Position numbers and translations under genes: made by a program. A DNA stretch of 64,000 nucleotides from Lactiplantibacillus plajomi. Its GTDB lineage: Bacteria > Bacillota > Bacilli > Lactobacillales > Lactobacillaceae. This document shows positions 26,607-45,163 of the stretch, piece after piece; the stretch's first letter is position 1, and each line of letters starts with the position of its first letter. Location of the stretch: NCBI RefSeq assembly GCF_005405405.1, contig NZ_BJDZ01000006.1, positions 62,001-126,000 of the forward strand. The letters are read 5' to 3'. The notes beneath the pieces were generated by a model. It saw only the letters and a list, made by a program, of their open reading frames with translations. It had not been told where the DNA came from and made no database searches.

Positions 26607-26676
26607 GTTACCCGTTGATTAAAACAATGATAATCTCTGTTTCAGCAAATGATTCAGGGCAAAGGAGCGTAATACA

Positions 26677-41707: not shown

Positions 41708-41730
41708 GAAAGCCGTTTTGTATTTTCACA

Positions 41731-41769
41731 ACGTGGTTCGTAACCATCCCACGTTAAAAAACTAGGAGG
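41731..41769 (+). promoter_or_regulatory. preQ1-I riboswitch
   Basis: The stem ACGTGG/CCACGT (41731-41736 with 41749-41754) encloses TTCGTAACCATC and is followed by TAAAAAACTAGGAGG. This is the compact class I preQ1 fold (P1, C-rich loop, A-rich tail ending in AAAAAACTA). The ribosome site of queT directly continues the tail, so preQ1 binding should hide it and reduce translation. Confidence 0.88.
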
Positions 41770-41779
41770 AACTAACAAC

Positions 41780-42286
41780 ATGACGCAATCAAAAATCCGG
41801 CCGTGGATCATCAACGCCCTCGTGGCGGCGATGTACGTAGTCCTATGCCTCGGCCCAGCCGCGTTCAGCCTAGCGTCCGGCGCGATTCAGTTTCGCGTTT
41901 CGGAAGGCTTGAACCATCTCGCGGTGTTTAACCGAAAATATATCTGGGGAATCGTCGGCGGAGTCGTCCTGTTCGATGCGTTTGGCCCCGGTGCCAGCCT
42001 ACTTAACGTTTTATTCGGGGGCGGGCAATCATTATTAGCCCTATTAATCCTAACTTGGATTGCCCCGAAGTTAAAAACCGTTTGGCAACGCATGGTTCTG
42101 AACATCTTCCTGTTCACCATTTCGATGTTTATGATTGCCATTATGATCACCTTAATGAGCAGCGGCGTCGCCTTTTGGCCAACCTACTTAACCACCGCGT
42201 TATCCGAACTCATCATCATGACGATTACCGCGCCAATCATGTACGCGCTTGACCGGGTTATGCACTTTAGTGACCGAATCGGTTAA
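41780..42286 (+). CDS. queT: Queuosine precursor transporter QueT (ECF S component)
   Basis: Membrane protein of 168 residues with five or six hydrophobic segments, matching QueT: SLASGAIQFRVSEGLNHLAVF near residue 30, then YIWGIVGGVVLFDAFGPGASLLNVLFGGGQSLLALL. It is the substrate-binding part of an ECF importer for preQ0/preQ1 and uses the shared EcfAAT module encoded elsewhere. The preQ1-I riboswitch directly before it supports this. ATG 41780 follows AGGAGG. A terminator follows at 42311. Confidence 0.95.
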   Translation: MTQSKIRPWIINALVAAMYVVLCLGPAAFSLASGAIQFRVSEGLNHLAVFNRKYIWGIVGGVVLFDAFGPGASLLNVLFGGGQSLLALLILTWIAPKLKTVWQRMVLNIFLFTISMFMIAIMITLMSSGVAFWPTYLTTALSELIIMTITAPIMYALDRVMHFSDRIG

Positions 42287-42397: not shown

Positions 42398-42549
42398 CGG
42401 TCCGCTCCGCCGTCACGAAAGCAAGGCTGTGGGCACGCTCGGAAGCCGATTCACAACCCGAATCGTCTCCCAAGACGGCCTTGTTGTAAGTCGCCCAAAA
42501 ACGGCGACCAACAACAACCTCACAGCCATGTTTCGAAGGGCTCCGGGAC
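42398..42549. repeat. Structured repeat A, copy 1
   Basis: First of three nearly identical GC-rich units of about 153 bases. Ends GGTCC and GGGAC; inner helices CGAAA/TTTCG and GGCTGTG/CACAGCC; inside these, two hairpins: CGATTC/GAATCG and GTTGTAAGTCGCC with GGCGACCAACAAC. No ORF with a ribosome site fits it. Confidence 0.85.
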
Positions 42550-42932
42550 AGCATCTAATTTGATAACCAATTGTTTCAAAGACACAACATACATATGCTG
42601 AAAAGCTTTTCTTAATGCAAATCGGTAATAAAATTATTTTTACAAATGGTCTTAGTATGCCGGTCCGCTCCGCCGTCACGAAAGCAAGGCTGTGGGCACG
42701 CTCGGAAGCCGATTCACACCCCGAATCGTCTCCCAAGACGGCCTTGTTGTAAGTCGCCCAAAAGACGGCGACTAACAACAATATCACAGCCATGTTTCGA
42801 AGGGCTCCGGGACCTAAGTAGAGCATCTGATTTGATAATCATTCGTTTCAAAAACACAACATACATATGCTGAAAAGCTTTTCTTAATGCAAATCAATCA
42901 TAAAATTATTATTACAAATAGTCTTAGTATGC
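42550..42932. repeat. Repeated AT-rich spacers between A units
   Basis: The bases after copy 1 (42550-42660) and after copy 2 (42815-42932) are nearly the same, including ACACAACATACATATGC, the palindrome GAAAAGCTTTTC and CTTAGTATGC just before the next unit. So the true tandem period is about 263-272 bases. Confidence 0.8.
42661..42814. repeat. Structured repeat A, copy 2
   Basis: Same unit, 263 bases after copy 1. Differences from copy 1 are few and fall mostly in loops, such as CCAAAAGA in the second hairpin. The spacer before it (about 110 bases, AT-rich) is also repeated between copies 2 and 3. Confidence 0.87.
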
Positions 42933-43085
42933 CGGTCCGCTCCGCCTGCACGAAAGCAAGGCTGTGGGCACGCTCGGAAGCCGATTCACACCCCGAATCG
43001 TCTCCCAAGACGGCTTTGTTGTAAGTCGCCAAAAGACGGCGACCAACAACAACTTCACAGCCATGTTTCGAAGGGCTCCGGGACC
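42933..43085. repeat. Structured repeat A, copy 3
   Basis: Same unit, 272 bases after copy 2. It has CTGCACG for CGTCACG near the start and a one-base shorter hairpin loop. The repeated spacer does not follow it, so the tandem array ends here. Confidence 0.86.
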
Positions 43086-43120
43086 TAAATTACAGCATTA
43101 TATCTAATAACGCGTTAGAT

Positions 43121-43160
43121 TTAATGAACCAGTCGCTCAGTTAGCGATGTCGTTCATTAA
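43121..43160. other. Long hairpin C
   Basis: TTAATGAAC (43121-43129) pairs with GTTCATTAA (43152-43160), and inside it TCGCT pairs with AGCGA. The dyad is symmetric and has no T tract. It follows array A at once, after a smaller dyad TCTAA/TTAGA. Confidence 0.7.
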
Positions 43161-43287
43161 CAGATAACTTGAATTAGTAATTCTGAACGGATAGATCCTA
43201 AAATTCTTGATTTTCTAAGTAGTGACCCCCATTCAATAATCAATTACCGACCTAACGCAATCTATTCATACAAATTAACTTACTAAT

Positions 43288-43468
43288 GCCTGCCAACGAC
43301 CAACTTAAGCTTGGAGGGAAAGCGGGAACAGTCCCAGCGGTGAAGTTTCACTTGGTCGCCGGTTTTTGGCGAGTTAGTGAAAGCCCGGTGGTTAAGACCT
43401 GGGTTGTGGGCTTAACCCCGAGGCCACCGCGTTCCGGACTGATTCCCGCTGACTGGAAGGCTGACAAG
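43288..43468. repeat. Structured repeat B, copy 1
   Basis: About 180 bases. The core 43321-43450 closes with AGCGGGAACAGTCC against GGACTGATTCCCGCT (14 pairs, one bulge). Inside are two hairpins: TTTCACT..TCGCC/GGCGA..AGTGAAA, and CGGTGG..GTTAAG/CTTAAC..CCACCG. This is a three-way junction fold. GCCT at the start can pair with AGGC at 43458. No ORF is convincing. Confidence 0.82.
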
Positions 43469-43606
43469 TGTTTACTAACTTCGAAGCGATTACCAACCAC
43501 TAGGATGAAGTGACGTTACCCATCTGTTTAGTACGTCTAATATTGTGTCCCTGACAGCTAGATTTAACAGCGAGTTTTTCACCAATTCTCATCAATGAAA
43601 TCTAAC

Positions 43607-43787
43607 GCCCGCCAACGACTAATTAAAGCCTGCAGGGAAAGCGGAAACGGTCCCAGCGGTGAAGTTTCACTTGGTCGCCGGTTTTTGGCGAGTTAGTGAA
43701 AGCCCAGTGGTTAAGACCTGAAGTTTGGGCTTGACCCCGAGGCCACCGCGTTCCGGACTGATTCCCGCTGACCGGAGGGCTGGCAAG
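43607..43787. repeat. Structured repeat B, copy 2
   Basis: Second copy, 319 bases after the first, with about 20 scattered differences. The three-way junction is kept. The outer GCCC/GGGC pairing here replaces GCCT/AGGC of copy 1. Bases 43569-43606 before it recur in altered form at 45119-45163, beyond the IS element. Confidence 0.82.
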
Positions 43788-43896
43788 AAAAACTAACTCG
43801 GAATCGAGCTAAACTTAAATAATTAAGTTCTGTTTTTCTTCAATTTAGTAACACTATGGATTTAGGTCAAGAATCTGGACACATTTTATGTATAAT

Positions 43897-44730
43897 TTAA
43901 GCGACTAATTTTTCCTTTTCATTTGGAGTTAAATAATCAATGCTACTGTGAATTCGAGCACTGTTATAAAAGCTCTCAATGTAGCTGAATATTGCAGCAT
44001 TTGCTTCTTCAAAATCCTGATAATGGTGTTGGTAAACCTCTTCTTTTTTCAAACTGGCGTGAAATGATTCCAAACATGAATTGTCATAGGGACAGCCACG
44101 CTTGCTATAAGAATGGCGAATATGGTGTTGCGCTAAGATCTGTTCAAAGCCAGCACTGCGGTACTGGCTACCCAGATCGGTATGCACAATTAAGTTATTA
44201 GTCGTCTTTCTAGTTTCAAAGGCTTGTTGAAAAGTGCTGATCACAAGATCAGCAGTCATATGACGGCTGATTTTATGGGCAATGATTTTACGTGAATATA
44301 AATCCTGAATGCTTGATAAATAACACCAGCCATTGGCTTTGGTGTGAATATAAGTTATGTCTGCACACCACTTTTGATTTGGACTGGTTGTACGAAAATC
44401 TTGCGCGAGTATATTTGAATAATCAGTCGCATCAATATCATTAGTTTGTTGATAATGCCACTTCTTGCGCGTGATTGATTTTAACCCCATTTGGCGCATT
44501 AATCGTTGAACTAGCTTAATACTGGCAGTCTTACCTTCTTTTTGTAACGCTTTTAGAATTTTAGGTGCCCCGTAGATACGTCTAGAATTAAAGTAAATGC
44601 GTTTAATCGACTGGCTAAGTGTCTTACGACGCTTGGCTTGTGGCGATACATGATTCTGCTGATGTTCATAGTAAGTTGAGCGTGGAACTGAGAGTACTTT
44701 ACAGGTTTCTTTGATACTATGGTGCTTCAA
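43897..44730 (-). CDS. IS3-family transposase OrfB
   Basis: DDE integrase-type catalytic part of 277 residues as an own frame from TTG 44730. An HTH_21 region (ETCKVLSVPRSTYYEH, then RRIYGAPKI) is followed by the rve core, with Asp in KWCADITYIHTK, Asp in VHTDLGSQY and Glu in CLESFHASLKKE; the catalytic triad is complete. It is probably made mainly as an OrfAB fusion by -1 frameshifting. In the shifted frame the chain continues upstream into orfA without a stop. It looks active. Confidence 0.92.
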   Translation of the reverse strand: MKHHSIKETCKVLSVPRSTYYEHQQNHVSPQAKRRKTLSQSIKRIYFNSRRIYGAPKILKALQKEGKTASIKLVQRLMRQMGLKSITRKKWHYQQTNDIDATDYSNILAQDFRTTSPNQKWCADITYIHTKANGWCYLSSIQDLYSRKIIAHKISRHMTADLVISTFQQAFETRKTTNNLIVHTDLGSQYRSAGFEQILAQHHIRHSYSKRGCPYDNSCLESFHASLKKEEVYQHHYQDFEEANAAIFSYIESFYNSARIHSSIDYLTPNEKEKLVA

Positions 44731-44765
44731 ATTAATATCAACGGCTGTCTGCCAGTCATCTGGGT

Positions 44766-45023
44766 TTACTTTTTGGCGAATATGGTTAAGGCTTTTTTTA
44801 AGATGTCATTCTCACTTTCTAGCTGTTTCAAACGTTTTTGCAACGCTAAAACATCTGATTTGGAAATTCCACTTCCTTTGTCTTCTTTATATAGATTAAT
44901 CCATTTGTAAATAGTTACATTTGATACACCATATTCGTCTGTAAGATCAGCTACCGGGGCGCCATCCTGGTACAGCTTGACAATCATTTTTCTAAAATCT
45001 ACTGAGTACTTTTTCTTGGTCAT
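44766..45023 (-). CDS. IS3-family transposase OrfA
   Basis: Protein of 85 residues with a helix-turn-helix (YSVDFRKMIVKLYQDG...DLTDEYGVSNVTIYKWINLY) and a C-terminal leucine-zipper-like stretch (LQKRLKQLESENDILKKALTI). It binds the IS ends and can regulate transposition. Read from ATG 45023; a run of seven A near its end allows -1 frameshifting into orfB. Confidence 0.92.
   Translation of the reverse strand: MTKKKYSVDFRKMIVKLYQDGAPVADLTDEYGVSNVTIYKWINLYKEDKGSGISKSDVLALQKRLKQLESENDILKKALTIFAKK
44792..44799 (-). other. -1 frameshift site of IS3 element
   Basis: On the minus strand, AAAAAAAG lies 11 codons before the orfA stop. OrfB is in the -1 frame relative to orfA (the start-to-start distance of 293 bases equals 3x98-1), and that frame is open from here into OrfB. 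Confidence 0.75.
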
Positions 45024-45118
45024 AAAAACACAATCCTTCCTATTATGGAATTATACTAAATCGTGTCCATGATTTCATACTACCTTCACTATGTCCAAAC
45101 ATGACTTAATGTTGTTGG

Positions 45119-45163
45119 CAGCGAGTTTTCACACTGGTTCTCATCAATAAGGTTAGACACTGG
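45119..45163 (+). repeat. Remnant of repeat-B upstream flank
   Basis: AGCGAGTTTTCAC..TTCTCATCAAT.. resembles 43570-43606, the sequence just before B copy 2. This suggests that the repeat region once extended past the present IS element. Confidence 0.5.

Follow-up and report, generated by a model that had tools for sequence, protein, structure and literature searches.

A dispersed repeat of Lactobacillaceae with divergent three-armed modules, probably a MITE-like element

The bcr1-bcr18 repeats of the Bacillus cereus group are high-copy intergenic sequences, often found in untranslated regions; bcr1-3 have been described as MITE-like, and bcr10 and bcr18 have a conserved predicted RNA structure (PMC3446304). 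The BOX elements of streptococci are composite small interspersed repeats with a tandemly repeatable module and strong predicted secondary structure, and mobilisation by the transposase of an insertion sequence has been proposed for them on the basis of similar terminal repeats (PMC3049150). In the REPIN/TnpA-REP (RAYT) system, inverted pairs of hairpin-forming repeats are scattered between genes (PMC3116915, PMC8266576).

We analysed a 64,000-nt stretch of the Lactiplantibacillus plajomi genome (contig NZ_BJDZ01000006.1, positions 62,001 to 126,000), referred to below as the window, which carries an array of two related repeats, A and B. The array is like the bcr repeats in being high-copy and intergenic but belongs to a different taxon, a distinction drawn from their description. 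To our knowledge, bcr repeats are not built of two outward-facing three-armed modules. BOX, likewise set apart by description, has the form boxA-(boxB)n-boxC in one direction, whereas homologous modules are here inverted around a middle segment; it is the end modules that are repeated here and boxB in BOX, and the taxon again differs. REPIN palindromes are much shorter than the modules found here, and the link to a Y1 transposase that marks REPINs does not hold for these modules. What is new relative to all three systems is that large modules, conserved in a strand-specific manner, stand as an inverted pair. We consider the array to be, with good probability, one copy of a family of MITE-like, non-autonomous transposable elements.

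Layout of the element in the window

The preliminary description of this DNA reported three near-identical units separated by repeated AT-rich spacers, and both observations hold: the A units are 95% identical, with start-to-start distances of 263 and 272 nt, and the AT-rich A-A spacers are repeated along with them. The three ~153-nt units are confirmed as real, chance being ruled out. As an account of unit, strand and extent, however, that description was incomplete, as it missed the better preservation of the fold on the minus strand, the repeat B, the dispersal throughout the genome and a tail split by an IS3 element. We built a covariance model from the minus strand of the A copies and ran it on the window, where it matches, on the plus strand, both copies of B (two ~186-nt copies beginning at 43283 and 43602); A and B are therefore inverted relatives. 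On its minus strand A carries the hairpin TTGGTCGCCG...GGCGAsTTA, which B has on its plus strand, and the three-armed layout is likewise shared. B is a structural homologue of A, inverted, and forms part of one element with it. The features are as follows, in window coordinates.

42398-42550, minus strand: A module copy 1, outermost on the left (model match, E = 7.7e-42)
42551-42660: A-A spacer
42661-42814, minus strand: A module copy 2 (model match, E = 1.7e-42)
42815-42932: A-A spacer
42933-43085, minus strand: A module copy 3, innermost, the reference copy for the three-armed fold (E = 7e-43)
43086-43282: middle segment of 197 nt between the divergent A and B modules
43283-43468, plus strand: B repeat copy 1, module core 43315-43455 (A-derived model, E = 1.4e-12)
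43469-43601: B-B spacer, which is the right tail of a B unit
43602-43787, plus strand: B repeat copy 2, module core 43635-43774 (A-derived model, E = 5.6e-9)
43788-43856: right tail of B copy 2, first part, broken by the IS3 insertion (75-81% identity to the tails of other loci)
45088-45154 (approximate): right tail of B copy 2, second part, beyond the IS3 insertion (88-90% identity to the tails of other loci)

The full element thus has three A modules on the minus strand, a middle of ~200 nt and two B modules on the plus strand, all facing outward. At a paralogous locus, the start of the A-A spacer resembles the middle segment (27 nt, 89%). No coding sequence is evident in the element, as had been claimed, the sole long frames being chance minus-strand ORFs. 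The IS3-family element (~43857-45087), which interrupts the last B unit within its right tail, has two minus-strand ORFs (43897-44730 and 44766-45023) and a few bases repeated beyond the insertion; the tail that resumes after it (~45088-45154) directly precedes a CBS-domain gene. On its left the array adjoins a preQ1 riboswitch (41727-41771) which lies immediately upstream of a gene for a QueT-like membrane protein (41780-42286). Elsewhere in the window, an L31 ribosomal protein leader was matched by Rfam at 26635-26667.

A covarying fold and its strand

The module folds over ~130-155 nt as a long outer stem closing two hairpins. The strongest hairpin had been said to keep its stem while its loop varies, and this is the case for the P3 hairpin of the A copies. 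Covariation was scored on 150 sequences: 57 of the 58 pairs covary, with changes on both sides, and the covariation score is 0.582, compared with 0.155 for shuffled sequences and at most 0.074 with slid partners. Because this alignment leans to the model, we ran the test again on a structure-blind MAFFT alignment, taking the structure from the window A copies and excluding their rows, so that the test is out-of-sample. Core pairs were then 87% paired, as against 67% for shuffles (maximum 67.5%) and 35-51% for slid partners. Nucleotides in the junction and internal loops are also conserved over several genera. That the fold is kept by compensatory change is exceptionally well supported.

On the outward strand, G-U pairs outnumber A-C mismatches in the inner helices by 290 to 75 (115 sequences versus 17), and by 303 to 126 in the blind alignment. 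A strand-neutral feature of duplex DNA would be expected to show the two in equal numbers; the excess of G-U marks the outward strand. In the A copies that were folded, RNA of the minus strand is also more stable than that of the plus strand. In DDE transposition, the transferred strand is the one with its 3' end at the terminus; the outward strand has its 3' end at the terminus of the element, and therefore corresponds to the transferred strand in a DDE transposon. The strand-specific covariation would fit either a use of the outward strand as a folded single strand or the existence of outward transcripts.

Dispersal and genomic setting

About 14 full-length matches to A, several partial ones and 18 matches to B were found in the genome of L. 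plajomi itself. The composite order A(1-3)-middle-B(1-2) is invariant at about ten of its loci. The middle segment is conserved, measuring 197 nt in the window and 235-246 nt at the other loci, and some outer A copies are truncated, with the inner side missing. Across 98 clusters, taken from the named loci and the window, we counted 43 of the form '-+', two '--+', one '---++', one '--' and 51 single modules. All 46 of the 46 clusters of mixed orientation run minus-then-plus, and none is '+-'.

Among congeners, 19 of 21 genomes are positive (the own genome being counted among the 21), with 0 to at least 120 model matches per genome, the counts being lower bounds. The congeners G001 and G002 are without any module match, yet carry several ISL3 and Y1 transposase genes. 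The proposed search of Lactobacillaceae was run with a second covariance model, built from 150 relatives and applied both to the family and to Bacilli at large. Full-length relatives are present in 41 of 151 Lactobacillaceae genomes (13 of 40 genera), often in dozens of copies each. Genera represented among the named hits include Lactiplantibacillus, Companilactobacillus, Lacticaseibacillus, Lapidilactobacillus, Levilactobacillus and Pediococcus. Of 150 sampled genomes of other Bacilli none matches, the own genome being the sole positive in the set of 151. Within the samples searched, the element family is restricted to Lactobacillaceae. The exact A pattern does not occur in the named genomes, unlike a two-part consensus pattern, which has many occurrences there.

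Viral contigs scanned for the exact pattern and phage records searched for distant matches gave no copies, and we therefore reject a phage feature. On plasmids we found one locus shared by related plasmids and one on a plasmid of L. pentosus, which were unusable as an empty-site comparison. A module relative lies on a plasmid family of L. plantarum/paraplantarum (L182, L184 and L185; about 2501-2603), with a heavy-metal P-type ATPase gene downstream of it in at least two of these plasmids.

Rfam (release 15), with which a comparison had also been proposed, gave no match at the gathering score, in agreement with the claim that no known RNA family is present; a permissive threshold gave sub-threshold chance matches (E up to 5). 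We found no account of this repeat in the open-licence papers searched. In the element region one promoter-like site was detected, compared with 2.2 expected by chance, and it lies outside the modules. Flanking genes, as placed by a simple ORF caller, show no preferred orientation (++ 22, -- 27, +- 20, -+ 15).

These observations bear on the strongest alternative, that the modules are dispersed functional structured RNAs, acting as outward or untranslated-region transcripts in protein binding, processing, stability or termination control, for which mobility is mere spread. The very strong covariation, including the conserved junction and internal-loop nucleotides in several genera, the excess of G-U over A-C on one strand and the greater stability of that strand as RNA in the folded A copies all speak for this reading. 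However, the promoter-like sites do not exceed chance, neighbouring genes stand in all orientations, congeners range in copy number from none to over 100 and no Rfam family corresponds, and we consider the alternative unlikely. Of the structured non-coding RNA proposed in the preliminary description, the strongly covarying structure stands, whereas neither promoter-like sites nor gene orientation speak for a free-standing RNA gene.

Mobility, candidate transposases and interpretation

In the complete genome of a member of another Lactobacillaceae genus (G176), paired modules are bounded by terminal inverted repeats of the GGTTCTTTCTTAAGTTAGGTTA type, and the resulting units measure 281-528 bp, with no coding frame within. 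With the frame fixed, 14 of these paired-repeat elements were scored for target duplications: a perfect 7-bp duplication occurs in two (AATTGAG and AATTTCT) and three more agree at 6 of 7 positions, whereas 0 of 182 mismatched left-right flank pairs reach 6 of 7. Further elements have offset duplications, for example CTTGTGG, and a clean duplication is seen in only part of the G176 elements. When the flanks are rejoined, an intrinsic-terminator hairpin with the insertion in its loop is obtained in about six cases (e.g. 633004, 1127725, 2193241 and 2288152); the mean folding energy of rejoined flanks is -10.7 kcal/mol, compared with -6.5 kcal/mol for mismatched flanks.

In Lapidilactobacillus bayanensis, inverted repeats sharing the core CTARAACTGTTATGTTGTRCTTCTTCG flank the module pairs, and the genome has 175 such terminal-repeat sites (at most 3 mismatches), whereas the reversed pattern has 0; neither target duplications nor a terminator-loop signal were seen at its elements. 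At L187, L190, L193, L194, L197 and L213 of this species, truncated outer modules lie outside intact units, most with a terminal repeat of their own. Right tails are visible in G182 and G100. At the queT-CBS site itself, several congeners have just 58-89 bp with one terminator, and others have module pairs of differing subfamilies, or remnants.

The MITE-like reading offered in the preliminary description is thus supported in relatives, where the main features of such elements were found, with inverted repeats at the termini, duplicated target sites and insertion into terminator loops; for the window copy, at which neither terminal repeats nor target duplications could be made out, it would follow by homology. 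The loci inspected for the G176 terminal repeat include no autonomous element with such ends; ORFs beside solitary matches to the repeat are mostly housekeeping genes, with no transposase, and on plasmids the repeat gave weak chance matches alone. An autonomous partner is usual but not required for the MITE class, and partners can be lost.

The best lead to an enzyme comes from the ISL3 insertion sequences of Lactobacillaceae, which resemble the G176 elements in their GGTTCT(TT) ends, 8-bp duplication and terminator-hairpin targets. In the same genomes they begin GGTTCT or GGCTCTTT and generate duplications of 8 bp (in one G176 copy, CAACTTAT). Several of them are located in terminator hairpins, like the G176 units; a target preference for such hairpins is possible for the ISL3 family here. 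The G176 terminal repeat agrees with ISL3 ends in its first eight bases and differs in most of the remainder, with duplications of 7-8 bp. ISL3 elements, however, have a transposase of roughly 410-470 aa and no such modules, and their numbers are uncorrelated with those of the modules: no ISL3 match occurs in G017, G008 or G073, all of them rich in modules, whereas G001 and G002 have 7 and 12 ISL3 matches, respectively, and zero modules. The case for and against a link between the elements and an ISL3-type transposase is about evenly balanced. Separately, ISL3 copies at L349, L351, L356 and L370 appear to lie in intrinsic-terminator hairpins (in the loop or T-run), with short duplications.

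A REPIN-like origin, in which inverted hairpin pairs are moved on single-stranded DNA by an unlinked Y1 (TnpA-REP/RAYT) transposase, would account for structured, intergenic, high-copy modules in inverted pairs with a strand-specific fold. It is nevertheless very improbable. The modules are ~150 nt long, against 20-40 nt, and the target duplications suit a DDE enzyme. A link to Y1 transposases is rejected, as their presence does not track the modules (the module-rich G008, G020 and G013 have no Y1_Tnp match, and the module-free G001 and G002 have 3 and 7) and 30 Y1_Tnp loci are without any module nearby. Local tandem duplication of an immobile chromosomal sequence, suggested by the tandem standing of the three A copies and their spacers, can be dismissed, being refuted by the same-order dispersed copies at about ten loci and by relatives across the family.

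If the array is a MITE-like element, as we think probable, its unit would comprise a terminal inverted repeat, a minus-strand module, a short middle, a plus-strand module and a second terminal inverted repeat. A transposase supplied from elsewhere, perhaps of the ISL3 type, would recognise the terminal repeats and move the unit in trans, inserting it into intergenic DNA with 7-8-bp duplications and, in at least one genome, with a preference for terminator loops; the window copy presumably moved in the same way. The fold may be used while the outward strand is single, in end recognition, synapsis or the choice of hairpin targets, and may also render insertion tolerable close to transcript ends. 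The truncated outer modules of L. bayanensis and of the own genome suggest nested insertion or recurrent loss of the inner side, and the A-A-A-B-B arrays may go back to insertions nested in one another, or to tandem duplication, with the outer units decaying afterwards. One point against the MITE-like reading is that covariation across genera is stronger than a simple MITE requires.

MITEs usually show little beyond their terminal repeats. Here a three-armed fold of ~150 nt is held by compensatory change in several genera, on one strand only, and this makes it possible to test whether selection can act on the ends of a transposon as folded single strands. It is conceivable, if somewhat doubtful, that the elements form a class of transposon whose ends are both large domains of the transferred strand, folded while single; the transposition machinery or a host protein would read them as structure rather than as duplex sequence, and the transposon would home to the loops of intrinsic terminators. 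Alternatively, and with the same reserve, the modules might also serve as a structured RNA that is widespread in lactobacilli and has gone unrecognised. In food and gut lactobacilli the number of these elements can exceed 100 per genome, although neither the RNA-family library nor the open-licence literature searched includes them; they give rise to assembly breaks, strain markers and altered transcript ends.
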